A stretch of DNA of 64,000 bases from Rhodobiaceae bacterium. Its GTDB lineage: Bacteria > Pseudomonadota > Alphaproteobacteria > Parvibaculales > Parvibaculaceae. Made by a program: the position numbers and the translations under genes. A model generated the notes under the pieces. It ran no database searches, had not been told where the DNA came from, and saw only the letters and a list, made by a program, of their open reading frames with translations. Below are positions 5,608 through 61,380 of this stretch, piece by piece. Within the stretch, counting starts at the first letter, position 1. Each line of letters begins with the position of its first letter. The stretch lies in the NCBI GenBank assembly GCA_021404525.1, contig JAAWWE010000001.1, positions 124,001 through 188,000 of the forward strand. Direction: 5' to 3'.

Positions 5608-6354
5608 TTAAGACGTTGGGTTGATCGGCGCCCGAAAAGCACTGAGCGTCACAACTTTCTCCAGATCAGCCCGGGTTGACCGGGCAGTCTCGATAATATC
5701 GCCCTCAGCACGGTCGATCAGGTCGAGAATTTCCTCCACCCCTTCGAGTACTTGCGGAAGCCACTCCGATTGTTCGCCATTTTCAGAGAGCATCTGCTCA
5801 GCATCCGCCGCGAGCGTTGCCGCAGCCTGACGCACAGCGCCAGTACTGAAGTCACCAGGGCCAACAATCAGACCCTCAATGTAGCGTATCTGCGCGCGGA
5901 TATCGTTGATACGCGCGGCCTGTTCGCGACTTACCCGTTCATCGTCATCTGCAATGGGGGCAAGGTCATCAAGCGGCAGACCGAGACAATGACCAATCGC
6001 TGTCATGGTTCGAAAGGTGCCATCTTTCTTGCCGGTCTCAATTTCTGAAAGATAGGCGGGACTGATGCCCGCTGCCCTCGCAAGCTCAACGCCTTTCAGG
6101 CCGCGATGTTCCCGCCACACTCGCACCGGGTTCTCCCCGTCGGCGATCCGGTGGACAACCTCTGCTGGAATGAGGTCCGCACGGTCCCCCAGAAGCGCCT
6201 CATTGGCGGCTTTTATGTCGACAATATCTTCAGCCGCACGTTTCAGCTGCTCATATTCTGCGACGGGAACCAGGGCATAGAGGGCTTCGCCGCCTGGTCC
6301 GCGAACAAGTTGTGGATCGTTAGACCGGCTGTCCTGTTTCAAAGAGGAACTCAT
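5608..6354 (-). CDS. XRE-family antitoxin with extended C-terminus
   Basis: A 248-residue protein. Residues 1-70 resemble a small antitoxin-type head (a region with VPVAEYEQLK), followed by a clear XRE helix-turn-helix (about 76-132; ELARAAGISPAYLSEIETGK). A helical C-terminal extension of about 110 residues, rich in acidic and Ala residues, is not part of a usual XRE antitoxin. It is the second gene of a pair: its ATG overlaps the toxin stop by 4 bp. Expected to neutralise the upstream RelE-like toxin and to repress their shared promoter. Confidence 0.75.
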   Translation of the reverse strand: MSSSLKQDSRSNDPQLVRGPGGEALYALVPVAEYEQLKRAAEDIVDIKAANEALLGDRADLIPAEVVHRIADGENPVRVWREHRGLKGVELARAAGISPAYLSEIETGKKDGTFRTMTAIGHCLGLPLDDLAPIADDDERVSREQAARINDIRAQIRYIEGLIVGPGDFSTGAVRQAAATLAADAEQMLSENGEQSEWLPQVLEGVEEILDLIDRAEGDIIETARSTRADLEKVVTLSAFRAPINPTS

Positions 6355-6644
6355 GGGGGGGTGTCCTTTGCTTGGGGAGGAAAGCCGGCATCGGTAATGG
6401 CAAGTACAGTGAGTGCACTTCCATTGCGTTCAAACACAAACCGCAAGCCGTCATCCAGGCGCCGGGTTCGCCGCGACCCGGTCAGCATTTCGTCATTGCT
6501 GTCATCGCTCCGCATGGACATGAGGGCGTTTTTCAGCTGTGATCTGTGATGTTTGGTAAGGCGCGACATTTGACGGAAAGCGCTGCGGCTGTAGGCGATG
6601 CCGTGGGCATTCTCTACGCCGCCAAAATAGGCCACATTTTCCAT
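6351..6644 (-). CDS. RelE/ParE-family toxin (HigB-like order)
   Basis: A 97-residue basic protein with the RelE-fold pattern: an N-terminal strand, helices (QMSRLTKHHRSQLKNAL), then a run of strands (LDDGLRFVFER, ALTVLAITD). RelE-type toxins are usually ribosome-dependent mRNA endonucleases; the target here is unknown. The toxin gene precedes the antitoxin, the order seen in HigBA-type systems, and the two overlap as ATGA. Confidence 0.7.
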   Translation of the reverse strand: MENVAYFGGVENAHGIAYSRSAFRQMSRLTKHHRSQLKNALMSMRSDDSNDEMLTGSRRTRRLDDGLRFVFERNGSALTVLAITDAGFPPQAKDTPP

Positions 6645-6860
6645 TATCCAACATCCCTGAGCTCGCCCAGGTCACGTATTACGCACGCTCCCGGCAATCC
6701 TCACCACCTGCCCAACAAAATACGCCGATTCGCTCGCGCACGGCGAATTCTTAACCCAGAGTTCTTTTCGCTGGGCTCTCTTTCCGTCATCATGAGGCCA
6801 ACGAAAACGGGAGGCACCGGTGGTCCGCAAAAGCGACACCCGCCCAATAGGAGGAAAACA

Positions 6861-7778
6861 ATGTCTGCAGAACCAATCGATCAGGTTATTGAGCTGCTGA
6901 AACAGGCCGATATGGGCCGGGAAGGCTTATCGCTTGAGGACCGGCGAGCATCCATGGATGCGATGGCCGCTGCCTTTGGTGAGCCGCAGGGGGTGAGCAG
7001 AGACCACACAGAACTTGCGGGTCGTCCAGCACAGGTCTTCAAACCAGCAGGCAAAGAGCCTGAGCACACGCTGCTCTATTTCCACGGCGGTGGGTACGTC
7101 ATGGGCTCTCCCGATTCTCATGCGAATCTGACAGCGCGGTTTGCAACCGCAGCAGATGCCCGCGTGATCAGCTTTGACTACCGATTGGCGCCTGAAAATC
7201 CGTTTCCCGCCGCTGTTGAAGATGGGGTAGCGGCTTACAAAGCACTGCTTGATGAAGGCGTGTTGCCGGCCAAACTGGCTGTTGGTGGAGACTCCGCTGG
7301 TGGCGGACTGACATTTGCCACCTTGCTGAAAGCCCGAGACATGGGACTGCCCATGCCCGCGGCGGCAATTGGCTTGAGCCCTTGGACCGATCTTACGGGA
7401 CGGTCAGAAACCTACAAAACCCGCGCAGACGCAGACCCCATGATTGAGCCTGCGGGCATTACGCAGACAGGTCAGGAATATCTCGGCGGCGCATCGGCAG
7501 AAGATCCTCTCGCCTCACCTTTGCTGGCAGACCTTGCGGGCTTGCCCCCTCTCTTTTTGCAGGTGGGCGATGCGGAAGTTCTGCTCGACGATAGTCGGGA
7601 GTTTGAGAAGAAGGCGAGGGCCGCAGGCGTCGACTGTAAGCTGGAAGTCTGGGACCGTATGATCCATGTCTGGCACGCCTTTTTTCCGATGTTGCCCGAA
7701 GGCGAACAGGCCATAGACGGTCTGGCCGCGTTCCTCAAAGTCAGGTGGCGTCAGGAAGCAACGGCCCAGGCGATTTAG
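6861..7778 (+). CDS. Alpha/beta hydrolase, HSL (family IV) esterase
   Basis: A 305-residue enzyme with the hallmarks of hormone-sensitive-lipase-type esterases: HGGG oxyanion motif at 75-78, nucleophile Ser145 in GDSAGG, an acidic segment around 237-244 (GDAEVLLDD) and catalytic His269 (MIHVWH). It probably hydrolyses short to medium acyl esters in the cytosol. The start at 6861 is set by the strong site AGGAGG a few bases upstream; the frame is open for another 315 bp upstream but that stretch overlaps the toxin promoter. Confidence 0.85.
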   Translation: MSAEPIDQVIELLKQADMGREGLSLEDRRASMDAMAAAFGEPQGVSRDHTELAGRPAQVFKPAGKEPEHTLLYFHGGGYVMGSPDSHANLTARFATAADARVISFDYRLAPENPFPAAVEDGVAAYKALLDEGVLPAKLAVGGDSAGGGLTFATLLKARDMGLPMPAAAIGLSPWTDLTGRSETYKTRADADPMIEPAGITQTGQEYLGGASAEDPLASPLLADLAGLPPLFLQVGDAEVLLDDSREFEKKARAAGVDCKLEVWDRMIHVWHAFFPMLPEGEQAIDGLAAFLKVRWRQEATAQAI

Positions 7779-14861: not shown

Positions 14862-15434
14862 TCAAAAATACATTACAGACATCACAATGGGCGCGCACCA
14901 GGTAAGCTGATTGACATATTTCGTTTCGATGCCCGCCTCAAGCGGAACCAGGCCGAAGCGTGCCCCATTTTTGGGGCTTTGTATGAGACGGCGCAGAAAA
15001 ATTTTTCCTCCCCGCATTCCCACAAGACAATCCCGGTCGAAAGCCTGATCAATTTCTTCCCCCGTCAGCCGGTTGGCGATGAGCAGCGTACCAGCACTAT
15101 ACCGGCCAATATCTTGTTTAACGCGAACAGCAACAGGAACAGTCGCGGGTACATTTATCAGAAATCCGCTTTGCAACGAGCTTTTGGATGCAGTGACGGC
15201 GCCGCCATCGGCCAAGTCTCCAAGCATTTCGATACGCTCTGGAGAGGGTTCATCAATCAGCTCCGTGAGTTGAACCTGAAAAATCTTTGCGAGCGGAGCC
15301 AACCAGTCGACGGAGATTTTGATGCCGTCAGTCTCCAGTCTGGAAACAGTGGCAGCTGTTGTGCCCAATTGCTTTGCCAGGTCAGTTTGCGTCAGGCCCA
15401 TCTGCCTGCGGTAATGTCGAATTCGGTTTTTCAC
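14862..15434 (-). CDS. XRE repressor with degenerate LexA/S24-like domain (RogA-type candidate)
   Basis: A 190-residue regulator with an N-terminal XRE helix-turn-helix (residues 4-60; GLTQTDLAKQLGTTAATVSRL) and a C-terminal beta domain resembling the LexA/phage-repressor S24 fold (SAGTLLIANRL, GKIFLRRL). The Ser and Lys of the self-cleavage dyad are not apparent: an Arg pair stands where the Lys is expected. The GTG at 15434 is chosen because GAGAAAG precedes it. It is divergent from gafY across a 169-bp region holding the TTGCAT-N3-ATGCAA palindrome. In Caulobacter an XRE protein, RogA, represses gafYZ; the equivalence is inferred from position and fold. Confidence 0.75.
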   Translation of the reverse strand: MKNRIRHYRRQMGLTQTDLAKQLGTTAATVSRLETDGIKISVDWLAPLAKIFQVQLTELIDEPSPERIEMLGDLADGGAVTASKSSLQSGFLINVPATVPVAVRVKQDIGRYSAGTLLIANRLTGEEIDQAFDRDCLVGMRGGKIFLRRLIQSPKNGARFGLVPLEAGIETKYVNQLTWCAPIVMSVMYF

Positions 15435-15490
15435 AGGCTTTCTCTCATCTGCATATCGCGTTGACAGCATACGGCCGACACTCAAAATTA

Positions 15491-15505
15491 TTGCATGAAA
15501 TGCAA
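15491..15505. promoter_or_regulatory. Operator-like palindrome TTGCAT-GAA-ATGCAA before gafY
   Basis: A perfect inverted repeat with 6-bp arms and a 3-bp centre, flanked by A/T runs, placed midway in the divergent region between the XRE repressor and gafY. The same arms with the centre AAT occur at 42187-42201 before the first GTA structural gene, and I found no other copy in the window. A second, weaker palindrome (GGCTT-TGC-AAGCC) follows at 15518-15530. Confidence 0.65.
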
Positions 15506-15603
15506 AATTTACCCCCGGGCTTTGCAAGCCGCCTTATATGTAAGGGCACGGTTTTTGAGACCGAACTGCAAACATCAGAGTTCCAGGTAGGAGGCGAGAA
15601 GCA

Positions 15604-16038
15604 ATGCAAGAAATGTCCCCAAATGTCTCACTGAATCACACGAAAGAACTATCACGCTACGGCATTTTGACCACGAAGGCTGCTGCGAAACGGGCCGCCA
15701 TCTGGGCGCATCAGGCTGCCGACGTCCGGCTGACCTGTGAAGTGGTCGCGAGAGTTTACAACATTTTGCCAGAAGCGCTCTGTGCAAGTACGCGCGGTGA
15801 GGCCCATGTGGCGCAAGCTCGGCAGATTGCCATGTATCTCGCACATATTACGTTTGGCCTGTCCCTGGGGGCGGTGGGACGTCATTTCGGGCGGGATAGG
15901 ACAACAGCAGCCTATGCGTGTGAGCGGGTTGAAGACCGGCGGGATGATCTCCGTCTCGATATGATGCTTGATCGCCTGGAGAGAGCGCTCTCCATTTTGT
16001 CTGCCGCCCGTTCCGATATGACGTCGAGTATTCAGTAG
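15604..16038 (+). CDS. gafY: GafY: DnaA-domain-IV-like GTA activator
   Basis: A 144-residue protein whose centre (about 55-112) matches the DnaA domain IV DNA-binding fold, including the ARQIAMYLA helix and the RDRTTAAYAC recognition segment, without the DnaA ATPase. In Caulobacter GafY activates the GTA cluster promoter with IHF, and in Rhodobacter the equivalent is the N-terminal part of GafA. The gene has a strong GGAGG site and is followed after 11 bp by gafZ, making a two-gene operon. The complete GTA cluster at 42.4-57.9 kb supports this role. Confidence 0.85.
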   Translation: MQEMSPNVSLNHTKELSRYGILTTKAAAKRAAIWAHQAADVRLTCEVVARVYNILPEALCASTRGEAHVAQARQIAMYLAHITFGLSLGAVGRHFGRDRTTAAYACERVEDRRDDLRLDMMLDRLERALSILSAARSDMTSSIQ

Positions 16039-16049
16039 GAGGTAGCGAC

Positions 16050-16934
16050 ATGGAAACTGCGGCAGGTGTGGTGCGTCGCGAGGGTTTACGGGTGTTTCGG
16101 CGGCTACGAGAGCCCGCGCATTTCCTTCAGAGTTTGGCAAAAGACCCAAGCATGGTTGGCCTCTTCAGTCCCCGCAATCAATGGCAAAAGCCGGTAATGA
16201 AGCTGAAGATCGATGTCGTGCGGGCTTTGCATCGTGCAGATTTGCTTCAATCGAACGCGGGCGAGGAGCAACAGCGTGCCCCTGGGGGGCAGGGGCCCAC
16301 CTATACGCTCTCCGAAGCGGGACATGGGTGGTGGCGCCGGCAGATGGGGGACGCGGACCCATTTCAGGCACAACACCGGCTCATGGGCGAGGCGTCGATC
16401 GACGAGCCCGGTCGCGGCATGGTGCGGCGGGATCTCAATCTGGGTGAATCGCCGCTGGGATGGTTGCGCCGACGCCAGGGCAAGAATGGAGTGGCCTATC
16501 TCACAGAAGCCGAGGCGGAAGCCGGCGAACAGCTCCGCCGCGATTATACGCTCGCTCAAATCGATGCGCGGACGACCCTCAATTGGGACGGCATGCTCGC
16601 CCATGTCGATAGCTCATCGGCAGGCTCTGCGGGACAGGGAGACCGCTCGGTGCAGGCGTTGGATGCGCAGAAGAGGGTTGAGCGGGCGCTGGCGGAAGTC
16701 GGTCCCGGCCTTGCAGACATTGTGGTCGAGACTTGCTGCCACCTGAACGGATTGGAGCAATCTGAACGGACACTTGGTTGGCCGCAGCGCTCGGCAAAAC
16801 TCGTTCTCAAAATCGCTTTAACGAGACTCGCCCATCACTACCGGCTGACGGGTGGGACGAAGGCGCGTCGGGGATCCTATGTTTGGCACGCAAACAACAA
16901 AACGGGTGCCCCTGCCAGGGATCAGTCTGTATGA
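16050..16934 (+). CDS. gafZ: GafZ: DUF6456 protein, GTA transcription antiterminator
   Basis: A 294-residue protein of the DUF6456 family. The conserved C-terminal block runs from about residue 185 to 275 (DWxGML-like start NWDGMLAHVD, then ETCCHLNGLEQSER, and a helical end KLVLKIALTRLAHHY). The N-terminal half carries a short conserved stretch with ESPLGWLRRR. In Caulobacter GafZ joins an antitermination complex with RNA polymerase and Nus factors so that transcription passes terminators inside the GTA cluster. AGGAGG precedes the start. Its end overlaps the convergent sufE by 13 bp. Confidence 0.85.
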   Translation: METAAGVVRREGLRVFRRLREPAHFLQSLAKDPSMVGLFSPRNQWQKPVMKLKIDVVRALHRADLLQSNAGEEQQRAPGGQGPTYTLSEAGHGWWRRQMGDADPFQAQHRLMGEASIDEPGRGMVRRDLNLGESPLGWLRRRQGKNGVAYLTEAEAEAGEQLRRDYTLAQIDARTTLNWDGMLAHVDSSSAGSAGQGDRSVQALDAQKRVERALAEVGPGLADIVVETCCHLNGLEQSERTLGWPQRSAKLVLKIALTRLAHHYRLTGGTKARRGSYVWHANNKTGAPARDQSV

Positions 16935-42372: not shown

Positions 42373-42891
42373 ATGTCTGATGATCCGCTGCCTGAGGCGG
42401 ATGTGCTTAAGCCTGTTGACTGGGATCATATTGCGCAGGTCTATCAGACAGACCAAAAACTTGCGATTATCGCAAAAAACTATGGGCTGACGGTTCAAAA
42501 GATTGTGGCGCATGCCCAGCGTGAAGGCTGGCCGCTGCGCTATGAAAAACAGCAAGCCGACAAGCTGACGCGATTACCTGGGAGCACGGACCCGGCAACC
42601 TTGCGCAAACGTTTGACAGCACTCGTCGAGCGACAGATCTCAGAAATTGAGGGGCGTTTGGCGGATGTGAGCGAGAGCAGGGATCACGAGAGAGACGCCA
42701 GAACACTTTCGAACCTGACCCGAACTCTCGACAAGCTGATCGAACTGAAAAGAGCCGCCGCCGCAGAACGCGCGGCAGCTAAGCGGATAAGAGACGAAGC
42801 AACCAGCGATGACAGCGCAAAGACAGACGACGCACTCAGGCAAGATCTGGCGCGCCGCCTCTCTCGCATCGCTGCCACAGCCTCAGATTGA
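42373..42891 (+). CDS. orfg1: GTA g1: small terminase-like protein
   Basis: A 172-residue protein with a homeodomain-like helix-turn-helix near the N-terminus (IAQVYQTDQKLAIIAKNYGL) and a long helical, coiled-coil-like C-terminal region (SNLTRTLDKLIELKR). This matches the GTA small terminase, which with TerL packages host DNA into heads. It is the first gene of the cluster and overlaps g2 by about 83 bp. No clear ribosome binding site is seen. Confidence 0.8.
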   Translation: MSDDPLPEADVLKPVDWDHIAQVYQTDQKLAIIAKNYGLTVQKIVAHAQREGWPLRYEKQQADKLTRLPGSTDPATLRKRLTALVERQISEIEGRLADVSESRDHERDARTLSNLTRTLDKLIELKRAAAAERAAAKRIRDEATSDDSAKTDDALRQDLARRLSRIAATASD

Positions 42892-44128
42892 CGCCTTCCT
42901 TGGCGACCTGAGCCCTCAGGAGCTCCGCTTTCTGCTCCATGACTGGCGCTTCTGGGCAAGGGAGAGCCAATGGCCACCAGGCGGAAATTGGACGACCTGG
43001 CTGATTCTCGGCGGACGGGGCGCTGGAAAAACGCGGGCAGGTGCAGAGTGGATCGCCGAAGAGGTGAGAACTGGACGGGCAGGACGGATCGCCCTGGTGG
43101 GCGAGAGTTACGCGGATGCACGCGAAGTCATGGTGGAAGGCACATCAGGCCTGCGCGCGCTGGGGCCAGACAACTCAAAGCCGCGTTATGAAGCAACGCG
43201 CCGTCGGTTGGTTTGGACAAACGGCGCCGTGGCGAGCTTACATTCCGCAAGCGATCCAGAGGGGTTGCGCGGTCCGCAATTTGACGCGGCCTGGAGCGAT
43301 GAAGCGGCGAAATGGCCGGACGCGGAAGCGGCCTGGTCCATGCTGCAATTTGGGTTGAGGTTGGGGCAAAACCCACGTCAGGTCGTGACATCGACGCCCC
43401 GAGCCGTACCACTGATTAGAAGTCTGTTGGATGACAGCGACGTTGCCGTGACACGGGCCACAACCTATGACAATCGAGCAAACCTGGCGGACGCGTTTTT
43501 CTCGACAGTGATTAAGACCTATGAGGGAACCCGGCTTGGGCGTCAGGAGCTTAACGGGGAATTGCTGGAAGATGACCCGGACGCTTTGTGGACCCGTGGC
43601 CTTATTGAGGGCTGCCGGAAAACCAGCGCGCCGGACTTTGAACGGGTGGTGGTGGGCGTCGACCCGCCAGCAAGCTCTGGTGATGGCGCAGATGAATGCG
43701 GCATCGTGGTTGCGGCACTCGGGACTGATGACCGTTTCTATGTGATCGCCGATCGCTCCCGTGCCCGGGCGAAACCAACCGCCTGGGCAAAGGCGGTGGC
43801 AGAGGCTTATGAGAATTTTGACGCAGATCGCGTCGTCGCTGAAGTGAACCAGGGCGGGGAGATGGTGGGGAGCGTCCTGCACCAGGTAGCGCCATCACTG
43901 CCGGTGCGTCAGGTCCGTGCGACGCGAGGCAAGAAGGTCCGCGCTGAACCCGTGGCTGCCCTCTATGAGCAGGGCAGGGTATCCCACCTTGTGGCCCTGC
44001 CAGAGCTTGAAGACCAGATGTGCAATTTTGCGGGCCGCGGCAAAAGCCCGGACCGTTTGGACGCCCTTGTCTGGGCGATAACAGATCTCATGCGAACCGC
44101 GGGCGACCCCGCCATCCGACGCTTGTAA
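42809..44128 (+). CDS. orfg2: GTA g2: large terminase (TerL)
   Basis: A 439-residue packaging motor. ATPase motifs are Walker A GGRGAGKT (68-75) and Walker B ending in Asp164-Glu165 (AAWSDEAA). The nuclease half starts with VVVGVDPPASS and ends with the DRLDALVWAI motif. GTA terminases package random host DNA by a headful process rather than recognising a phage cos or pac site. A later internal start within the overlap with g1 is possible. Confidence 0.93.
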   Translation: MTAQRQTTHSGKIWRAASLASLPQPQIDAFLGDLSPQELRFLLHDWRFWARESQWPPGGNWTTWLILGGRGAGKTRAGAEWIAEEVRTGRAGRIALVGESYADAREVMVEGTSGLRALGPDNSKPRYEATRRRLVWTNGAVASLHSASDPEGLRGPQFDAAWSDEAAKWPDAEAAWSMLQFGLRLGQNPRQVVTSTPRAVPLIRSLLDDSDVAVTRATTYDNRANLADAFFSTVIKTYEGTRLGRQELNGELLEDDPDALWTRGLIEGCRKTSAPDFERVVVGVDPPASSGDGADECGIVVAALGTDDRFYVIADRSRARAKPTAWAKAVAEAYENFDADRVVAEVNQGGEMVGSVLHQVAPSLPVRQVRATRGKKVRAEPVAALYEQGRVSHLVALPELEDQMCNFAGRGKSPDRLDALVWAITDLMRTAGDPAIRRL

Positions 44129-52759: not shown

Positions 52760-53214
52760 CACGCAAAATCACACCAAACGAGATCGTTGCCTGTGCGCGT
52801 CTCTGGATCGGAACGCCCTACCACCATCAGGCGAGCAGGAGTGGCGTGGGGACCGACTGTCTTGGACTTATTCGCGGTGTCTACCGAGATCTCTATGCAG
52901 ATGAGCCTGAAATGCCGCCGCCCTATAGCCCTGATTGGGCGGAGGTGCCGGATCCAGACGGACACAGGGTTGAGACGATGGCGGATGCTGCGCGCAGACA
53001 CCTAAGAGAGATTGACAAAGCAGAGGCAGGGCCCGGCGATGTGCTTCTGTTTCGCATGGTACCGGGGGCCGTGGCAAAGCATGCAGCAATCAAAAGTTTC
53101 GAGGGGCGGATGATCCATGCCTGTTCCGGGCGTGCTGTCGCGGAGGTGCATATGGGGTCATGGTGGCCGCGCCATCTCGCTTTTGTCTTTCGGTTTCCAG
53201 GAGAGTTTAACTAG
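52756..53214 (+). CDS. orfg14: GTA g14: NlpC/P60-type tail peptidase
   Basis: A 152-residue NlpC/P60 papain-like peptidase: catalytic Cys in GVGTDCLGLIRGVY, His in KHAAIKSFEG and a third residue nearby. It probably cuts peptidoglycan of the recipient when the particle ejects DNA. It ends by one base inside the start codon of g15. Confidence 0.9.
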   Translation: MTRKITPNEIVACARLWIGTPYHHQASRSGVGTDCLGLIRGVYRDLYADEPEMPPPYSPDWAEVPDPDGHRVETMADAARRHLREIDKAEAGPGDVLLFRMVPGAVAKHAAIKSFEGRMIHACSGRAVAEVHMGSWWPRHLAFVFRFPGEFN

Positions 53215-56200
53215 TGGCTTCTGTCCTTTTGAATGCCGCGGGCTCTGTTGCTGGTTCGGCGGCGCTACCGGCTGGAATGAATTTACTGGGTGCCAATGTT
53301 TCCGGTGCAGCTCTTGGCAAGGCAGTCGGCTCCATCGCAGGCTCCCTGATCGATGACCAGCTGTTTGGTACATCGGTTACCCGGGATGGACCGCGTCTAT
53401 CGGATCTCGACGTGCAGGCGTCGACTGAAGGAGCGGCGATACCACGGGTGTATGGACGCGTGCGTCTCTCTGGCCAGGTGATCTGGGCAACCAAGTTTAA
53501 AGAGACGGCGACCACAAGTTCAAGCGGTGGCGGCAAGGGCAGCGCGGGCGGTGGTCAGACCGTGGACACAACCAGCTACACCTACTCTGTCTCTTTCGCG
53601 GTCGCCCTTTGCGAAGGGCCCATCAGCCGTATCGGGGGTATCTGGGCGGATGGCAATCTGCTGGACCTGTCGGGCCTTTCCTACCGGACCTATCTTGGGA
53701 CAGAGACGCAGCCGCCCGACAGCACGATGGAGGCAGTTGAAGGCGCAGGCAATGTGCCTGCCTATCGGGGGCTCGCCTATATTGTGTTTGAAGATTTGCA
53801 GCTTGCTGATTTTGGCAATCGGCTTCCACAGCTCTCCATTGAAGTGTTTCGCGCGCTGAGCGACATTGAGCAGGACATCAAAGCGGTCACCATCATTCCG
53901 GGCGCGACCGAATTCGGCTACGACACCACAGCCTTCCGTCGGATTTTCGCGGATGGTGTGAGCGACTCAGAAAACAGGAACAACCGCATCGGCGGAACCG
54001 ATTGGCAGGTTTCCCTGGATGATCTGCAGGCGACCTGCCCGAACGTCAGCGCGGCGGGATTGGTGGTGAGTTGGTATGGCGATGATCTGCGCTGTGGCAT
54101 GTGTTCCCTGCAGCCAAAAGTGGATCGTCAGGACAAGATGACCGTTCCGGAAAACTGGGCAGTGGCGGGGCTGGGGCGAAACACCGCACAGGAAGTCAGC
54201 CATGTTGACGGGCGCCCCGCATTCGGTGGCACACCCTCTGATGCGTCTGTTAAGCGGGCCATTGAGGATCTGAAAAACCGCGGCCTGTCGGTCTCTTTCT
54301 ATCCGTTCATCCTGATGGATGTGCCTTCAGGCAACGGACTGCCCGACCCTTATGGCGCAGCTGAACAGGCCGCCTATCCCTGGCGCGGACGCATATCGAT
54401 TGATCCAGCGCCGGGCTTTGTGGGCTCGGCAGATAAGACCGCAATGGTAGCGGCAAATGTCGCGGCCTTTTTCGGAACTGCATCAGCCAGTGACTTCTCT
54501 GTCTCCGTTGCGGGGATCACCTATTCGGGCCCAGATGAATGGTCCTACCGCCGCATGATCCTTCACAACGCAGCTCTGTGTCGCTGGGCGGGCGGTGTTG
54601 AGTCCTTTCTCATTGGATCTGAGATGCGTGGGCTCACGCAGCTTCGTGACAGCGCGACAACCTATCCTGCTGTTGGCGAGCTGATTGCATTGGCAGGTGA
54701 AGTGCGCGCGCTGCTTGGACCCTCAACCAAGATTTCCTACGCCGCAGACTGGTCCGAATATTTCGGTCACCAGCCGGCAGATGGCAGTGACGACGTTTTC
54801 TTTCATCTCGATCCGCTATGGACTGATGCGAATATCGACTTTGTCGGTATCGACAATTACATGCCGCTGGCGGACTGGCGGGACGGTACGGCGCATCTTG
54901 ACGCGCAGGCTGGTGCTTCAAGCATTTATGACCTCACCTATCTGCGGGGCAATGTGAGCGGCGGCGAGGGGTTTGATTGGTACTATGCCAGCGCTAGCGA
55001 TCGCGAAAATCAGATACGCACCCCGATCACGGACGGGGCACATGGGAAGCCGTGGGTCTTTCGTTACAAGGATCTGAATAGCTGGTGGAGCAACACCCAT
55101 ACCAATCGACCAGGCGGGGTTGAAAGCGGTGGCACGACCGATTGGGTGCCCATGGGAAAACCAATACGTTTCACAGAGCTGGGATGCCCTGCCATCGACA
55201 AGGGGGCGAACCAGCCCAATGTCTTTGTGGACCCCAAGTCGTCAGAGAGCAATGTGCCGCATTTCTCAAACGGTGTCAGAGACGATTATGGGCAACGCCG
55301 ATTCCTGGAAGCTCATCTAACTCATTGGCAGGATCCAAGCGCGAACCCCGTTTCGCCTGTCTATGGCGGGGCCATGGTCGACACAGATCATCTCTACATC
55401 TGGACATGGGACGCGCGCCCTTATCCCTCATTCCCCTCGCTGACGTCGGTTTGGTCTGATGGAGACAATTGGAAGCTCGGACATTGGGTCACCGGGCGCC
55501 TTGGCGCGGTTCCTCTTGCTTTGCTTGTGCCTGATCTCGCCAAAGCAGGCGGTGATGTGCCGCTGGATGCGGGAAGTCTCACGGGCACAGTCGATGGCTT
55601 TGTGCTGGATCGCATTCTGTCTCCCCGCCAGGCCATCGAGCCGCTTATGCTCGCGCATTTTTTTGATGCGGTGGAAAGCGAGGGGCTCATCCGGTTTCAA
55701 CATATGGGGAAGGCACCTGCTCTATCTGTGACACCTCAAGATCTGGCGGTGGAAGAAGGATCCGCACGAGCAGGCTTTGCGCTCACCCGCGGACAGGAAA
55801 CTGAGTTGCCCTTTGCGGTTAAGCTCACTTACCTGGATGCACAGGCTGATTACCGACAGGCAGCCGTAGAGGCCCGCCGTGCAACGGTCTCCTCTCAGCG
55901 TGTGTCGACGGCCGCTCTGCCGATGGTTTTGTCTCAGGCTCAAGCGCAGCGCATTGCAGAAATCTGGTTGCAGAACACGTGGGTGAAGCGGGAGCGTGCA
56001 TCACTGGCACTGCCACCAAGCTATCTGCGCGTCGATCCGGGCGACGTGGTGACCCTCGACCTGCCCGAAAGAGAGGTGGACTATCATCTAACCGGTCTTT
56101 CGAACGAGAGGTCGATTGAAGCAGAGGCGGTGAAAACCGAGGCAAGCGTCTTCGGCATTCTCACAGCACCCGACCGAACGCGACCCGCGGACCCGGTTCC

Positions 56201-57149
56201 GAGTTTCGGCATACCCGATGTTGCTTTCCTTGACCTGCCAATGCTCGATAGCGCGCAGACACCGCATGCGCCTTTCGTTGCCGCCACCGCTGTGCCCTGG
56301 CCTGGCAGCATAGCGCTTTATCGAAGCGCTACTGGAGCGGGTTTCACGCTCGACCGTGTGATTGATGTGCCCGCGACAATGGGAAGAACGCTGACCCAAC
56401 TTGCTGCCGGACCGGTGAGCAGATGGGACCGGGCGAATTCGGTTCAGGTGCACCTTACGAGCGGTGCATTGCAGTCCGTGTCAGACCAAGCCGTCCTGAA
56501 CGGTGCCAATCTGGCTGCCTTGGAAACCCACCCTGGTATCTGGGAAGTGATCCAATTCCAGCAAGCAGATCTTGTCGATGTGAACACCTACCTCCTGTCT
56601 GGTCTGCTGCGCGGTCAGGGAGGTACGGAATTGGCAATGGCAGAAATGCTGGGCGAGGGGGCGCGCTTCGTGCTGTTAGACGAAGCGGTGCAGCAGATAG
56701 GCCTGTCCTCGGCAGAGCGCGGTCTCGACATACATTGGCGATATGGACCTGGCCGCTATGGCTTTGACCACGAGACCTATGCAACGGAAGTGCGCGCCTT
56801 TGACGGCGTGGGTCTGCGGCCTTTGTCGCCTGTGCATATAAAGGGACACCGCAATGACGTGGGAGACATCGACCTTTCCTGGACAAGACGGACGCGTCTG
56901 GAAGCCGATAGCTGGCTTGGCCTTGATGTGCCCCTGGGCGAGGAAATGGAAACCTATGAGCTTGATATTCTTGATGGCGGAGCAGTGAAGCGAACACTCA
57001 CGGCTTCAACGAACTCAGTTGTTTATCCAAGCGCGCTTCAGATCGCGGACTTTGGCAGCAACAGCTTTTCCACTGTCGATCTTCGTATTAGTCAACTAAG
57101 CCAGGCCTTTGGGCGCGGCAGCACGAGAGAGGTCACCATCCATGTCTGA
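53214..57149 (+). CDS. orfg15: GTA g15: megatron tail-tip protein
   Basis: A 1311-residue protein starting at GTG that overlaps the g14 stop by one base. It holds an N-terminal membrane-active Gly-rich segment, a GTA TIM-barrel domain (about 420-730; DFVGIDNYMPLADWRDG near 540), a phage tail domain (about 800-1000) and a beta-rich receptor-binding C-terminus. It forms the tip that contacts the recipient cell envelope and may act on surface glycans. Confidence 0.92.
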   Translation: MASVLLNAAGSVAGSAALPAGMNLLGANVSGAALGKAVGSIAGSLIDDQLFGTSVTRDGPRLSDLDVQASTEGAAIPRVYGRVRLSGQVIWATKFKETATTSSSGGGKGSAGGGQTVDTTSYTYSVSFAVALCEGPISRIGGIWADGNLLDLSGLSYRTYLGTETQPPDSTMEAVEGAGNVPAYRGLAYIVFEDLQLADFGNRLPQLSIEVFRALSDIEQDIKAVTIIPGATEFGYDTTAFRRIFADGVSDSENRNNRIGGTDWQVSLDDLQATCPNVSAAGLVVSWYGDDLRCGMCSLQPKVDRQDKMTVPENWAVAGLGRNTAQEVSHVDGRPAFGGTPSDASVKRAIEDLKNRGLSVSFYPFILMDVPSGNGLPDPYGAAEQAAYPWRGRISIDPAPGFVGSADKTAMVAANVAAFFGTASASDFSVSVAGITYSGPDEWSYRRMILHNAALCRWAGGVESFLIGSEMRGLTQLRDSATTYPAVGELIALAGEVRALLGPSTKISYAADWSEYFGHQPADGSDDVFFHLDPLWTDANIDFVGIDNYMPLADWRDGTAHLDAQAGASSIYDLTYLRGNVSGGEGFDWYYASASDRENQIRTPITDGAHGKPWVFRYKDLNSWWSNTHTNRPGGVESGGTTDWVPMGKPIRFTELGCPAIDKGANQPNVFVDPKSSESNVPHFSNGVRDDYGQRRFLEAHLTHWQDPSANPVSPVYGGAMVDTDHLYIWTWDARPYPSFPSLTSVWSDGDNWKLGHWVTGRLGAVPLALLVPDLAKAGGDVPLDAGSLTGTVDGFVLDRILSPRQAIEPLMLAHFFDAVESEGLIRFQHMGKAPALSVTPQDLAVEEGSARAGFALTRGQETELPFAVKLTYLDAQADYRQAAVEARRATVSSQRVSTAALPMVLSQAQAQRIAEIWLQNTWVKRERASLALPPSYLRVDPGDVVTLDLPEREVDYHLTGLSNERSIEAEAVKTEASVFGILTAPDRTRPADPVPSFGIPDVAFLDLPMLDSAQTPHAPFVAATAVPWPGSIALYRSATGAGFTLDRVIDVPATMGRTLTQLAAGPVSRWDRANSVQVHLTSGALQSVSDQAVLNGANLAALETHPGIWEVIQFQQADLVDVNTYLLSGLLRGQGGTELAMAEMLGEGARFVLLDEAVQQIGLSSAERGLDIHWRYGPGRYGFDHETYATEVRAFDGVGLRPLSPVHIKGHRNDVGDIDLSWTRRTRLEADSWLGLDVPLGEEMETYELDILDGGAVKRTLTASTNSVVYPSALQIADFGSNSFSTVDLRISQLSQAFGRGSTREVTIHV

Positions 57150-57861
57150 CAGCACGCATCTCGCCTTGCCTTTTGTAGAAGCGGCGCAGGCGCAAAAGCA
57201 TGTGACCGTCAATGAAACGTTCACTCGGTTGGATGCGTTGGTTCACCTGGGCGTGGAAAACGCCGCCGAAATCACGCCGCCTGTCTCGCCTGTTGAGGGA
57301 GCGCGATGGATTGTCGGGCAGGGAGCCTCCGGTGCATGGGCGGGAGAAGATGGGAACGTTGCCGCCTGGATAGACGGCGCCTGGGTGTTTCTTGCACCCA
57401 AGGCCGGATGGCAGGCATGGGATGTAGAAGCCCGAAAACTGTTGATTCATGACGGCTCTAATTGGACCGCCGGACCATCTGGCACTGTCGCGGCTCTGAC
57501 GCCGAACGCGGCTGCAACCCGCATTGAAACGATCGAGATTGACCACACGATTGTCGCGGGCATGTTCAACGACACGGCGCTCTCCATTCCCGACAGAGCC
57601 ATCGTCTTTGGCGTGACGGGGCGGGTGCTTGCGGATGTTACCGGTCCATCATCCTGGACACTGGGCGTCGCCGCGGATTCCGGGCGCTATGGCAATTCTA
57701 TTGGCCTGACTGCAGGCAGTACGGTCAATGGCGTGAGTGGAACACCCACCGCCTATTATGGCGCGACGCTGGTCCGCGTGACCGCCACCGGTAGTGATTT
57801 CACCGGCGGCACCCTCCGTCTCGCCGTGCATTACCTGATCCTCGATATTCCCGCCGCTTGA
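57142..57861 (+). CDS. DUF2793 protein, probable GTA tail fibre / spike
   Basis: A 239-residue DUF2793 protein (LPFVEAAQAQKHVTVNET start, GARWIVGQGASGAW, a GxW repeat and a C-terminal beta region). The Rhodobacter homologue of this family is a GTA tail fibre encoded away from the main cluster. Here it overlaps the end of g15 by 8 bp, so it is very probably part of the same operon. It probably binds recipient capsule or surface glycan. Confidence 0.85.
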   Translation: MSDSTHLALPFVEAAQAQKHVTVNETFTRLDALVHLGVENAAEITPPVSPVEGARWIVGQGASGAWAGEDGNVAAWIDGAWVFLAPKAGWQAWDVEARKLLIHDGSNWTAGPSGTVAALTPNAAATRIETIEIDHTIVAGMFNDTALSIPDRAIVFGVTGRVLADVTGPSSWTLGVAADSGRYGNSIGLTAGSTVNGVSGTPTAYYGATLVRVTATGSDFTGGTLRLAVHYLILDIPAA

Positions 57862-57884
57862 TCGGGCACAATCGCTCAAAACAC

Positions 57885-57922
57885 ATATAGGAATTTAAAC
57901 CTAATGATATACGTGACGTACC
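57885..57922 (+). repeat. 38-bp repeat A (left), possible inverted terminal repeat
   Basis: This 38-bp sequence begins ATATAGG and ends TATACGTGACGTACC. On the minus strand the same pattern occurs at 60567-60604, with 28 of 38 positions identical and the ends best conserved. It contains the near-palindrome TAGGAATTTAAACCTA. The pair brackets about 2.7 kb with the HEPN-like gene, a small gene and the transposase. Confidence 0.6.
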
Positions 57923-57962
57923 GAAAATGAGCGATTTAGAGAAAAGCTCTGATACATCTTGC

Positions 57963-58745
57963 TTAGAGGAAGGTTTTCTCGAAAAGGTTGACGACTTCAG
58001 TTGTGGCCTGAGTGAGATTAACGAGCGTTTCGAGGATAGGCTCTCCGGTAAAGTGATCAGGTTCGCTGAAGATTACCGTAGTGGTCGCCTCGGGTTTGTC
58101 CTGTATCTGCACAGGAGGGGTCAGTCCGATTGTAAGTGGGTGGCCTTGTGTCTGGATTGCCGAGCCAGCGCTTTGAGTGAATCTGCCGTGGTCAGAGCCA
58201 ACAAGAACAAGGTCCTTGTCAAAGGAGATAGTATAGGCAGCAAGAAGCAACATTCGGTGCTTGTTGATGTTGTCGAGTTTGTTGAGACGCCAGATGGACT
58301 CGCCATTCCCTCCAAGGCAAGGTTGTACGCTGTCGAGAATGAAGAGATTGGCGTCTGGGAAGGCCTTATGTATCACGGCGTCAGTGCCTCTGGATTTGAT
58401 GGCCGCCGCCTCAAGATTCTGCCGCGTTTCGTGTCGTGGAAAGGTTACCTTCGAGGTTTTGTCGGGAGCGCTGGCTCGGGCCAAGCCGGACCAAAGGAAG
58501 TCCATAACGCTGTTGAGGTTGTGAATGGCGTCACCAAGGTGCATGAGGAGCGAGGCGGGCATGACTTGGTTTGGGCCGATTGTGACTATCGCGGGCTGCG
58601 CGTCATTGTTGACAGTGATAACGTCAACATTGTCACGAGCGACTTGTTCGACGAGGTTTTTGACGCCGTCGAAGTGTACTTTGGACCATTCGATCTTGAA
58701 TTTTGAATGCTCAAGCGCTGTATGAAGGATCTCGCTATCAGCCAT
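57963..58745 (-). CDS. Conserved hypothetical protein (MHLGDAIHNLNSVMDFLW type)
   Basis: A 260-residue soluble protein. Its motif HLGDAIHNLNSVMDFLWSGL, followed by the segment with PRHETRQNLEA and the LNKLDNINKHRMLLLA block, is widespread in bacterial hypothetical proteins, often in accessory regions; the HEPN-like two-helix appearance is my reading. The start is taken at MADSEILHT (58745). An open frame on the opposite strand (57927-58706) is rejected as its shadow. Function unknown; it lies between the GTA cluster and a mobile element. Confidence 0.7.
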   Translation of the reverse strand: MADSEILHTALEHSKFKIEWSKVHFDGVKNLVEQVARDNVDVITVNNDAQPAIVTIGPNQVMPASLLMHLGDAIHNLNSVMDFLWSGLARASAPDKTSKVTFPRHETRQNLEAAAIKSRGTDAVIHKAFPDANLFILDSVQPCLGGNGESIWRLNKLDNINKHRMLLLAAYTISFDKDLVLVGSDHGRFTQSAGSAIQTQGHPLTIGLTPPVQIQDKPEATTTVIFSEPDHFTGEPILETLVNLTQATTEVVNLFEKTFL

Positions 58746-58902
58746 GTCAGGCACCGATAAAAAAACAGATGAAGAAGAAGGCGACGAGATACTCCGCCGC
58801 ATGTTGAAGACTCCGCCTCAACCGAAAGGAGGCGAAGGCGACACCGAAGCGCCGCCCTCATTGTCAGACAAAGAGCGAAAGGATGGCCGCAAAGCCGAAT
58901 AA
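58744..58902 (+). CDS. Small charged protein with ILRRMLxTPPxP motif
   Basis: A 52-residue protein, too short for routine ORF lists: it starts MSGTDKKTDEEEGDEILRRM and has the motif DEILRRMLKTPPQPKGG, then a basic C-terminus. Such short Glu/Lys-rich proteins with LRRML-TPP occur next to the conserved hypothetical family above in many genomes. AAGGATC lies 13 bases upstream. The start overlaps that of the divergent gene. Confidence 0.6.
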   Translation: MSGTDKKTDEEEGDEILRRMLKTPPQPKGGEGDTEAPPSLSDKERKDGRKAE

Positions 58903-59269
58903 GCACGCGGCAACATTCACTTTTATCTCAAGCCGTACCGAAATTTTCATAGTGAAAACCTCGGACCTTGGCGCGCCTCAGTCCTTAAAAAGGTTTGAGG
59001 TTTCGCGTCCCATCCAACGGTTTAGCCGCCGTTGGGGGTAATCGGCCCATCATTGGCACTGTACACATGCCGCAGATAGTACCCGTTGATTTAGCACCTC
59101 TGACACCCGCCTTCGGCGGGCCGTATTGTGCATCGGGGTTACGCGGGTTGACCGTCACTTGGCGGGGGAATCACCCCCGCTGATTCGGGGCCGCGCATAT
59201 CTAATGATGGGCTGATTTTACTATGGGAGTCGAGTCTTTCGCCATAGACGGAAAGCCCTCGCTTTTTGC
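58903..59269. other. Hairpin-rich intergenic region
   Basis: No gene is supported. It contains three perfect stem-loops in 170 bp: CCAACGG-N8-CCGTTGG (59014-59035), CCCGCC-TTC-GGCGGG (59106-59120) and GCGGGGG-AATCA-CCCCCGC (59162-59180). None has a T-run. It could be a structured RNA, a cluster of repetitive extragenic palindromes, or part of the mobile element. Confidence 0.55.
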
Positions 59270-59280
59270 TTAAGCGAGCG
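59253..59280 (-). terminator. Stem-loop overlapping the transposase stop
   Basis: On the minus strand CTCGCTT and AAGCGAG (7-bp arms, 7-base loop) span the stop codon of the transposase gene (TAA at 59270-59272). It is followed by GGGCTTTCC rather than by a long T tract, so termination is only possible. It may mark the element's end. Confidence 0.45.
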
Positions 59281-60238
59281 TGGTTTCACTAGTCCGCCGA
59301 TAGGTCAGGCGCTTGCCACGGGCACCTGCCAAAAGGGCGTTAGCGCGTTCATTATCGGAGATTTTCAGTGCTGAACGGTGGTTATAACGGAAGTCAAATT
59401 CAGCAAGGTAGCGGTGCAAGTGAGCCTCGCCACAATGCTGATAGATGCCGCGCATACCGCGTTTGAAGACAGAAAAGACGTTCTCAATGGTGTTGGTGTG
59501 AACCTTGCCGCGAGCGTATTCCTTCTGGGAATGATTGACCGTTTCGTGGGCGTTGTATTCCTTGCCCGTCACTGTGTAGAGCCGGGACTCGTCGGTATAG
59601 AGGTTTGACTTGCGGTCAGCATGACGGACCAGGATGTCGCGCACGTTCTCTTTGTTGGCGTGGTCAATATGGAAAGAGCGGACTTTGCCGCCACGTTCCA
59701 CGAGGGCCACAACGGTGCGCTTTTGAATGCCGCCTTTGCGGTTCTTGAGGTAAGGACGGCCCTTACGCTGGGGAGAGACATAAGGGCGGTCACGTTTGCC
59801 GATATAGGTTTCGTCGGCTTCTACGGTCTTACCTTCGCCACCAAGGGGGCCAGAGGCTTCGGTGTTTTCTTTCATGGCCTCACGAATACGGTGAGACATG
59901 AACCACGCGGTTTTATAGGTCACGCCCAACATGCGGTGCAGTTGGTGGGCAGACATGCCTTTTTTAGATGCGGCCATGAGGTGAGTAGCCAGCACCCACT
60001 TATTGAGGGGCACCTTTGAGCGCTCAAATACGGTGCCTACGGTCACGGTGAAGGGCTTGCGGCACTCTTTGCACTTGTGGACACCGGGACGGGTTGATTT
60101 GCCAGAGAGCTTGGTAATTCGGGCTTGGTCGCAATTGCCGCAATGAGGGCAGAGAGGACCATCGGGCCAATGGATAGCCTCTAAGTGCTCACGGGCCTTG
60201 TTTTTGTCTTGATAAATTTCGTTTGTGAGGTCGAACAT
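59270..60238 (-). mobile_element. IS1595-family (ISXO2-like) transposase
   Basis: A 322-residue transposase: zinc-ribbon (PLCPHCGNCDQ, CKECRKPF) at the N-terminus, a middle helical domain (AHQLHRMLGVTYKTAWFM) and a DDE-like catalytic domain containing VEADETYIG, SNLYTDESRLY and the His-rich NTIENVFSVFKRGM. Start at 60238 (MFDLTNEIYQ); the frame is open further upstream, but that region encodes a separate small protein on the same strand. It is intact, so the element may be active. No convincing target duplication was found. Confidence 0.88.
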
Positions 60239-60284
60239 GGTTAGTCCAAGTGTTTTGAATGACGCGGCACGGATATTTATGGGT

Positions 60285-60524
60285 TTACTGGCTGATCGCC
60301 CGGATTTGGTCGAGGATCTCAAGTGCACGAGTGGTGTGGCTCGCCGAGCCTTGCCCGGACATTGCAACGTTCTCGACGGAGAGGTCAGCGAAAGCAAACG
60401 CCTGGCTGACGGCTTCCTTGCCTCCGCTGAGGTTTTGCAGGCTGAGAAAAAGGCCGGAAACAAGGGCTTGTAGGGCCAGCGTTTCGGCTGCGAGTGAGTC
60501 AATCTCTGATTTTAGGTTGGGCAT
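60285..60524 (-). CDS. Small protein upstream of the transposase
   Basis: A 79-residue Ser/Ala/Leu-rich helical protein (MPNLKSEIDSLAAETLALQ) without cysteine or membrane segment. AAGGAG stands eight bases before the ATG at 60524; a -35/-10 pair TTGACG-17-CATATG (60576 to 60548) precedes it and overlaps repeat B. It lies 46 bp before the transposase start and probably shares its transcript. Function unknown; possibly a regulator of transposition. Confidence 0.6.
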   Translation of the reverse strand: MPNLKSEIDSLAAETLALQALVSGLFLSLQNLSGGKEAVSQAFAFADLSVENVAMSGQGSASHTTRALEILDQIRAISQ

Positions 60525-60566
60525 TGGCATATCTCCTTGGCCCAACTCATATGGGTACGGATGGTT

Positions 60567-60604
60567 GGTACGTCAAGTATATAATTCTGAATTTAAACCT
60601 ATAT
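60567..60604 (-). repeat. 38-bp repeat B (right), possible inverted terminal repeat and promoter
   Basis: The minus-strand partner of repeat A. It contains TAGGTTTAAATTC followed by TATACTTGACGTACC; its TTGACG is the -35 of the small gene at 60524. So the sequence may be an element end, a promoter/operator, or both. Confidence 0.6.
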
Positions 60605-60620
60605 CGCCTATACTCGCTTT

Positions 60621-61103
60621 ATGACCCAAGCCATGCAGCCATCACCGTCGAACAGGGAGATCTCTAACCCTATGATTCCTAAGGAAAACCATGATGTGCG
60701 GTCAAACCATCCGGTGATCTGTGGAATGGACCTGATGGTTCTCGGTGCTGCTGTCGCCCATTATGGGCGGGGTCTTGATGAAGATGTGCTCGCCGCCCTG
60801 AGTTGGGCATTCCTCAACCGGCGCGCCACGGGCGACGGGGAGGAATTTGGGCCCGCGGCGACCAGTTCTCCTGATTGGGCGGCGGCGTTGATGGGAGATC
60901 CTTTGAAGCAAGAGACCGCCCGCGCGCTGGCGGTTTTTACCCGTGTTGTTGCCGGTTGTGTGAGCGATCCGACAGAGGGCGCCACCCGCTTTCACTGCCA
61001 TGACGAAACTCCTTCCTGGGCGGAGGATATGGACATCCGCGCCATTGTCGGTCCCTACCTCTTTTATGCCCCTACATCCAAAGATGTGGAAAAACACCGC
61101 TAA
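60621..61103 (+). CDS. SleB/Hydrolase_2-like protein lacking an obvious catalytic Glu
   Basis: A 160-residue protein. Residues ~40-70 (ALSWAFLNRRATG) and 118-150 (DPTEGATRFHCHDETPSWA, then IVGPYLFYAP) follow the pattern of cell wall hydrolases of the SleB/Hydrolase_2 fold, but the Glu expected near the start of the domain is not found (AHYGRGLDED instead). No signal peptide is present. It lies just past the mobile element, near the GTA cluster. Start may be 60621 or the ATG at 60672, which has a better site. Confidence 0.5.
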   Translation: MTQAMQPSPSNREISNPMIPKENHDVRSNHPVICGMDLMVLGAAVAHYGRGLDEDVLAALSWAFLNRRATGDGEEFGPAATSSPDWAAALMGDPLKQETARALAVFTRVVAGCVSDPTEGATRFHCHDETPSWAEDMDIRAIVGPYLFYAPTSKDVEKHR

Positions 61104-61115
61104 TTTATCAGCAAG

Positions 61116-61136
61116 TTGAAACCGCGCGGTTTTCAA
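61116..61136. other. Palindrome between 60.6-kb gene and small membrane gene
   Basis: TTG-AAACCGC-GCGGTTT-T-CAA forms a 10-bp near-perfect inverted repeat with no loop bases to spare. As RNA it would make a weak hairpin; as DNA it could be an operator for the gene at 61174. No T tract of note follows. Confidence 0.4.
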
Positions 61137-61173
61137 ATGATTAGGCTTTCATCCGTATTCTGATCGTTCGACG

Positions 61174-61380
61174 ATGATGTCGAGCATGAGGAACGGTGCG
61201 ATGGCGCAGCGGATGATTTTTTTACGAGAGAGACGGCGGGCCTCCATGCGCCGCATGTCTCTGGTGCTCTTGTTGATGACCGTCACAATGATGATCTTCC
61301 TGGCAGGTGTCCGCGTCGGCGTGCAATACGCTGAGCATAGCAACGAACGCACGCCTGTCTTCGCGTCACTCGAGAAATAG
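61174..61380 (+). CDS. Small membrane protein
   Basis: A 68-residue protein: a basic Arg-rich head (RERRRASMRRM) followed by one strongly hydrophobic helix (about 29-48) and a short polar tail. A single-pass inner-membrane protein with N-in topology is likely. Several in-frame ATGs near the start leave the exact start open. Function unknown. Confidence 0.5.
   Translation: MMSSMRNGAMAQRMIFLRERRRASMRRMSLVLLLMTVTMMIFLAGVRVGVQYAEHSNERTPVFASLEK

Follow-up and report, generated by a model that had tools for sequence, protein, structure and literature searches.

An IS1595-type transposon with exchangeable passengers, from a lineage that probably inserts into operator-like palindromes of gene transfer agent loci

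Siguier, Gagnevin and Chandler are said to have described in 2009 that the IS1595 family of insertion sequences (IS) has members with passenger genes. Here we describe a related segment of about 2.7 kb from a Rhodobiaceae bacterium, lying in the window (the whole 64,000-nucleotide stretch that was analysed; GenBank assembly GCA_021404525.1, contig JAAWWE010000001.1, positions 124,001 to 188,000) directly past a gene transfer agent (GTA) cluster that closes with the megatron gene and then a DUF2793 gene. Like the passenger-bearing members of the family, it combines a transposase of the DDE_Tnp_IS1595 plus zinc-ribbon type with terminal inverted repeats, a short target duplication and passengers; unlike them, its lineage has a highly specific AGG-N8-CCT target, ends of the form (C)CTAATTA instead of GG.., exchangeable passengers resembling HEPN and toxin-antitoxin proteins, and insertions that recur at GTA control sites. 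What was not expected is where it lands, in dyads that look like GTA control switches.

Other known systems share some of these traits. Tn7-like transposons with defence cargo likewise land at a conserved site in the chromosome and vary in their defence-like cargo, but the elements described here carry a single IS1595 transposase within 2-3 kb and target a dyad resembling an operator, not the end of a gene, and no separate target-selector protein was found in them. IS elements that insert into repetitive extragenic palindromes (REP) or terminators exist, and they too enter the inside of a palindrome, whereas the main group of the present lineage goes into an AT-rich GG-N8-CC dyad linked with GTA genes. 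On the GTA side, the available part of PMC9632790 describes the Caulobacter GTA repressor RogA, a helix-turn-helix (HTH) plus S24 protein that binds the gafYZ promoter region holding two GGAA-N4-TTCC inverted repeats, and GafY, which resembles DnaA domain IV. The dyad studied here resembles that operator in the inverted-repeat geometry, the gafYZ promoter and the HTH-S24 repressor; unlike the operator as that part of the source presents it, the dyad also occurs at the promoter of the GTA cluster and at the gene of the repressor type, and is used as a transposon landing site. Our literature search did not find IS1595 passenger transposons and gene transfer agents joined in print, and a search for the IS1595 family together with transcription terminators returned nothing.

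We regard the segment as likely to be an autonomous transposon of the IS1595 type, whose passengers are exchangeable and whose lineage inserts at the centre of AGG-N8-CCT operator-like palindromes at host GTA promoters. An earlier, sequence-only reading had noted an imperfect 38-bp inverted repeat around an IS1595 transposase and passengers, and this repeat is borne out (57885-57922 versus 60567-60604, complementary at 28/38 positions, 74%), as is the enclosed content, namely a conserved gene on the minus strand, a small charged one on the plus strand, a hairpin-rich stretch, the transposase and its small upstream gene. In three genomes of the same genus (G003, G002 and G001) the segment is missing and the host flanks are directly joined. 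These empty sites place the ends at about 57900 and 60589, not at about 59200, and the whole segment is a single IS1595-type transposon with passengers, as had been suspected. The empty site reads TAGGAAAATAAACCTA in G003 and TAGGAATAAAAACCTA in both G002 and G001; it is a palindrome, for example GATATAGG-AAAATAAA-CCTATATC, whose centre is doubled in the window as GAATTTAAAC. As brackets, the 38-bp repeats thus hold in their 22-bp inner part, which is transposon, while their outer AT-rich palindrome is duplicated host target; repeat A, the left copy, was rejected on this evidence as a full element end.

The length of the duplication is ambiguous. Since the target is GG-N8-CC and the element ends mostly begin with C, 8-bp and 10-bp duplications are inseparable, and the perfect 10-bp repeat of the window contains an 8-bp one; the transposon accordingly spans 57901-60588 with a 10-bp duplication, or 57900-60589 with the 8-bp duplication that is usual in the family according to the available part of PMC8101967. 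The core of the repeat occurs three times in the 4.16-Mb genome, twice as the two ends described here and once in a partial copy on contig C67 (L004, 5740-7320). This partial copy lies beside tRNA-Lys and retains one transposon end and the small charged gene, together with a different passenger pair, one of which matches the PADLOC candidate PDC-M24B (E 1e-7); neither a transposase nor a second end was found at 5740-7320.

Relatives were collected by searching contigs of bacterial and archaeal genomes once with five transposases, and the best 80 of 477 loci were kept. Both ends could be placed in 66 of the 80, 64 of them from an end pair with a repeat of 7 bp or more and two (L130 and L135) by the ends alone; with the window this makes 67 elements, the 14 loci lacking a resolvable end pair being left out. 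The order of the window element, namely end A, a variable passenger, the small charged gene, the transposase and end B, recurs in relatives, and nearly all elements measure 2.0-3.0 kb (longer are L141 with 3.1, L136 with 3.2 and L112 with 5.7 kb and two transposases). Under one fixed geometry, 54/67 elements have perfect 10-bp repeats, a count in which insertions within one genus are not all independent (four Henriciella loci, for example, share one site), and the distant relatives L170, L173, L177, L178 and L180 have 8-bp duplications. A terminal GG is reported for the related Merlin elements; distant relatives end in GGC or GGG, whereas the window element has CTAATGA and AGAATTA at its assigned ends and the main group likewise shows no GG at the assigned ends. 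Two members were also noted individually. In Methyloligella halotolerans, the 5.7-kb element with two IS1595 transposases (L112, 5928-11603) contains a gene pair resembling, by eye, the passenger pair of the C67 copy, and in genome G032 a related IS1595 element (L055, 3170-5380) is inserted in AGGAATAAATACCT and has as passengers a small charged open reading frame (ORF) and, judged by eye, a DUF3800-like gene.

The targets are closely alike. Among the 54 elements with perfect repeats, the duplicated core is framed as G-N8-C in 50, as GG-N8-CC in 43 and as AGG-N8-CCT in 37, against a background for GG-N8-CC of 0.64% of 619,334 flank positions from the same loci; for AGGA-N6-TCCT the figures are 29/54 targets versus 5/619,334 flank positions. 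GG-N8-CC is rebuilt at both junctions in 37/54 elements, whereas the window element rebuilds it at one junction only. On the transposase tree, the operator-target label clusters, with 13 changes versus a shuffled mean of 19.9 and none of 500 shuffles as low.

The sequence-only reading had also offered a shared operator or promoter as its alternative, and in substance this was right, for the near-palindrome in repeat A is an operator-like host dyad that is found at other GTA-linked genes. The insertion targets share the GG-N8-CC geometry of the GGAA-N4-TTCC repeats in the RogA region. With neighbour profiles that were built partly from loci later scored with them, a GTA terminase lies at most 0.7 kb away in 12 elements, a GafY-like gene at most 0.1 kb away in 11, and an HTH-S24 (RogA-type) gene adjoins the insertion in 2 (by Pfam for L107). 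Window copy included, GTA-linked neighbours are present in 26/67 elements, all of them among the 54, and in 0/13 of the others. At the terminase site the insertions occur in both orientations, 7 versus 5.

Empty GTA sites were drawn from viral contigs, 34 of which matched a pattern made of the operator and the -35 of the GTA promoter. All but one of these (33/34) are GTA clusters, 32 having the terminase and L210 being recognised by six other GTA genes. A transposon end abuts the operator in 15/33 of these promoters and 18 are without one; among the unoccupied sites, L217 maybe holds a remnant and L208 has just 10 bp of upstream DNA. A search of 20 large genomes with terminase DNA gave weak matches only, in 7/20, and the search in the family of G080 gave 0/7. 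Within the genus of the window, TAGGCTTGTATTCCTA or a near variant of it lies 29-50 bp ahead of the start of the HTH-S24 gene in the own genome and in G001, G002 and G006, and in G003 and G005 the dyad of this RogA-type gene carries an element end. The HTH-S24 gene of the own genome is 97% identical to that of G003. Since the G003 transposase is 97% identical to that of the window, one recent lineage entered two different dyads in two species.

Two groups of insertions deserve mention on their own. In Henriciella, the same operator before the GafY-like gene is occupied in four genomes (L126, L127, L150 and L164), in two opposite orientations and with different passengers, and therefore by at least two insertions. 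In Mesorhizobium, two insertions (L115 and L128) lie in the dyad, and the flank of L115 holds an imuB-like gene (by eye) which, if it is one, would bring an operon of the SOS type close to such a site.

Several observations weigh against the proposed targeting of GTA operators. About half of the targets (28/54) are without a recognised GTA neighbour within 1 kb, although three of these 28 (L108, L113 and L131) have one farther away. The class-wide pattern search for the GTA operator-promoter gave 0/385 genomes, so this promoter form is restricted in range. Element pairs were initially chosen for a repeat of at least 7 bp, the 14/80 unresolvable loci being dropped, and the RogA-type orthology is inferred from domain order and position rather than from comparison with the Caulobacter RogA sequence. 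The window itself fits imperfectly: its right junction is only half rebuilt (60586-60601 reads TCTG-AATTTAAA-CCTA), and its target TAGGAATTTAAACCTA fits GG-N8-CC but has AACC where GGAA-N4-TTCC has TTCC, thus differing at two inner bases. In addition, no AT-rich TAGG-N8-CCTA-type dyad was found upstream of the terminase or GafY-like genes of the window; with none before the latter, GTA control here may use another site.

Part of the family suggests a looser rule, namely that the transposase recognises palindromes or cruciform/hairpin DNA generally (terminators, REP-like repeats, operators), GTA operators being merely common palindromes in the hosts. The sister-group elements L166 (CCTCCCCGAGGGG), L152 (CCCCGGCTTTATGCCGGGG) and L175 sit at the centre of GC-rich palindromes resembling terminators or REP-like repeats, other relatives have no dyad, and the mean 12-bp arm palindrome score is 5.9 at the targets versus 3.2 at control positions, so that the rule may simply be 'palindrome'. 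However, GG-N8-CC at 43 and AGGA-N6-TCCT at 29 of the 54 targets go well beyond palindromy in specificity, the outer arms are weak in many targets, and the insertions recur at three functionally linked genes; we regard this general rule as possible but rather unlikely. The sister group on GC-rich palindromes or other sites indicates that target specificity changed within the family.

Occupation of 15/33 operator-bearing GTA promoters in viral contigs could also arise by survival instead of targeting: insertion would be broad, and copies would accumulate at GTA operators since those that disarm GTA or keep it repressed persist. GTA release kills the producer cell, according to the available part of PMC13236601, which would favour such copies. 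Selection alone, however, allows many promoter positions, whereas the insertions fall on one exact base position at the dyad centre, and at non-GTA genes too, and this makes the explanation quite improbable. That only the transposase part (~59200-60600) is mobile, the passenger region and repeat A being unrelated host DNA, would agree with the single transposase gene usually held by IS1595 elements (available part of PMC8101967), but it is refuted by the empty-site comparison in the three congeners, which spans 57900-60589, and by relatives whose two ends lie at the corresponding places and enclose other passengers, and is left with practically no chance.

Across the elements the transposase and the ends are stable, and it is the passengers that differ. 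Between the window and G003 elements the passenger blocks are unrelated, while the transposase and the anchors are near-identical. A homologue of one HEPN-like family (candidate RNases) is carried by 40/66 elements; among 24 aligned members the only invariant residues are the R and H of R-x4-H (R101 and H106; L107-type), and the L107-type passenger of the sister element has the R-x4-6-H HEPN catalytic motif. Its model has a predicted local distance difference test (pLDDT) score of 88.8, with no HEPN chain among the VIA matches listed. Toxin-antitoxin or defence-like genes are present in others. Single elements carry ImmA/IrrE-like, Panacea, PemK/MazF-like, Clp protease, NYN and DUF1828 domains, each of the Pfam families being found in a single member among 83 passengers, and single PADLOC matches include capP, RmrA and PDC-M24B.

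The window passenger belongs to a separate family from the L107-type, with relatives at several of these loci, and has no match in Pfam, PADLOC, NCBIfam or PHROG. Its model (pLDDT 77) is predicted to be a helical bundle with inserted strands, HEPN-like by structure. The best VIA match is the HEPN domain protein 4nqf_B (Z 10.0, below the 13 advised for helical bundles; root-mean-square deviation 3.0, 122 aligned), and other HEPN toxins are among the top 14 VIA matches, where helical bundles score high easily; Foldseek found no significant match for this model or for the L107-type model. The protein is without RN-xxx-H, and its family has an invariant H163 in a KHR motif. Its most probable role is that of a HEPN-type toxin or RNase. 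A relative of it was also seen at L157 (9610-10374), immediately beyond a further element of the family, where it looks like a leftover from an adjacent copy.

Table 1. Coordinates of the transposon, its parts and the host genes around it in the window
Feature	Position	Strand	Remark
Complete passenger transposon, ~2.69 kb	57900..60589	none	same-genus empty sites (3) and fixed-geometry ends
Left target-site duplication GAATTTAAAC	57891..57900		8-bp core AATTTAAA at 57892-57899
Right target-site duplication GAATTTAAAC	60589..60598		8-bp core at 60590-60597
Left terminal inverted repeat CTAATGATATACGTGACGTACC	57901..57922	+	
Right terminal inverted repeat, inward AGAATTATATACTTGACGTACC	60567..60588	-	18/22 match left repeat
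Intact operator-like dyad TAGG-AATTTAAA-CCTA rebuilt at left junction	57888..57903		from sequence
Passenger gene, 260 aa	57963..58745	-	relatives within or beside other elements of same kind
Small charged gene with GDEILRRMLKTPPQP motif	58744..58902	+	overlaps passenger start on opposite strand
Hairpin-rich stretch	58905..59240		confined to window copy among loci compared
IS1595-family transposase, 322 aa	59270..60238	-	97% identical to transposase of G003 element
Small gene, 81 aa, between transposase and right end	60285..60530	-	body not found in other loci compared
Inward promoter candidate	60548..60576	-	TTGACG 60571-60576, 17-bp spacer, CATATG 60548-60553
GTA baseplate protein 'megatron'	53214..57149	+	NF048004 GTA_megatron 1839.7 bits (cut-off 800)
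GTA terminase	42809-44125		same host GTA cluster
DUF2793 gene, 3' end of GTA cluster	57142..57861	+	left neighbour of insertion
Right neighbour host gene	60621..61103	+	ATG ~20 bp beyond dyad
GafY-like gene (DnaA domain IV, PF08299), then DUF6456 gene (GafZ-like by position)	15604..16934	+	

Within the element (Table 1), the transposase has the domains PF12762 DDE_Tnp_IS1595 (E 4e-35) and PF12760 Zn_ribbon_IS1595 (E 2e-9, 37.5 bits, cut-off 25.4) and scores 205.6 bits against the NCBIfam model NF033547 transpos_IS1595 (cut-off 75); it is the only transposase ORF beside the passengers, which matches the single-transposase trait of IS1595. The motif GDEILRRMLKTPP of the small charged ORF occurs in 37/67 elements, with 0 matches in flank windows of equal length. 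An Rfam search of 57500-61200, hairpin-rich stretch included, gave 0 matches. The -35 that had been proposed in repeat B is indeed there as TTGACG, 17 bp before CATATG, and the layout is kept at the transposase end of the relatives: an inward TTGAC, ~17 bp, TATAAT-like promoter has a -10 score of at least 4/6 in 44/67 elements versus 3/134 control positions. A plus-strand ORF of 259 aa (57927-58706) was rejected as a gene: it runs antisense to the passenger gene, which is conserved on the minus strand, and the corresponding frame of the C67 copy reaches a stop just beyond its first codons.

As for the host context, the megatron and terminase genes lie together in the GTA cluster of the window, and up to 11/13 ORFs of the GTA region are also found in single viral-contig loci. 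The right neighbour gene has weak similarity only (PHROG 938 endolysin, 0.0013; Hydrolase_2, 0.046, below cut-off). Elsewhere in the window (14862-16934), a divergent HTH repressor gene lies upstream of the GafY-like and DUF6456 genes.

The effects on GTA and the control by RogA, which we infer, could come about as follows. The transposase, or the bound state or shape of the operator, would pick out a dyad that serves a RogA-type (lambda cI-like) repressor. Element ends that mostly read CTAATTA would rebuild it at each junction, so that the repressor site is copied, not lost, and the insertion would be silent. With the inward TTGAC-17-TATAAT promoter starting ~10 bp from the rebuilt operator, the transposase may share the GTA repressor. 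Insertion would also cut the GTA core promoter from any upstream activator sites; since the Caulobacter GafY and integration host factor (IHF) sites lie upstream of the GTA core promoter in the available part of PMC11150451, a promoter separated from that DNA would be hard to induce, and the element would tend to disarm the GTA. In its fullest form, a tentative scenario that we think unlikely as a whole, a GTA repressor operator has been turned into a transposon attachment site that is copied to both ends, the transposase is under the GTA repressor and the element moves when GTA production and packaging are on, and HEPN and toxin-antitoxin cargo would thereby spread among alphaproteobacteria while the host GTA is disarmed.

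If the insertion points mark operators, the regulon of the GTA repressor could be traced by them in many alphaproteobacteria, and in Rhizobiales-type hosts the promoter of the GTA cluster is itself predicted to have a repressor site. The lineage would then be a compact system in which a single transposase recognises an operator as the place to land, and a small carrier of HEPN genes and of other genes of toxin or defence-like type. It also makes testable why GTA loci decay or remain silent in many genomes.

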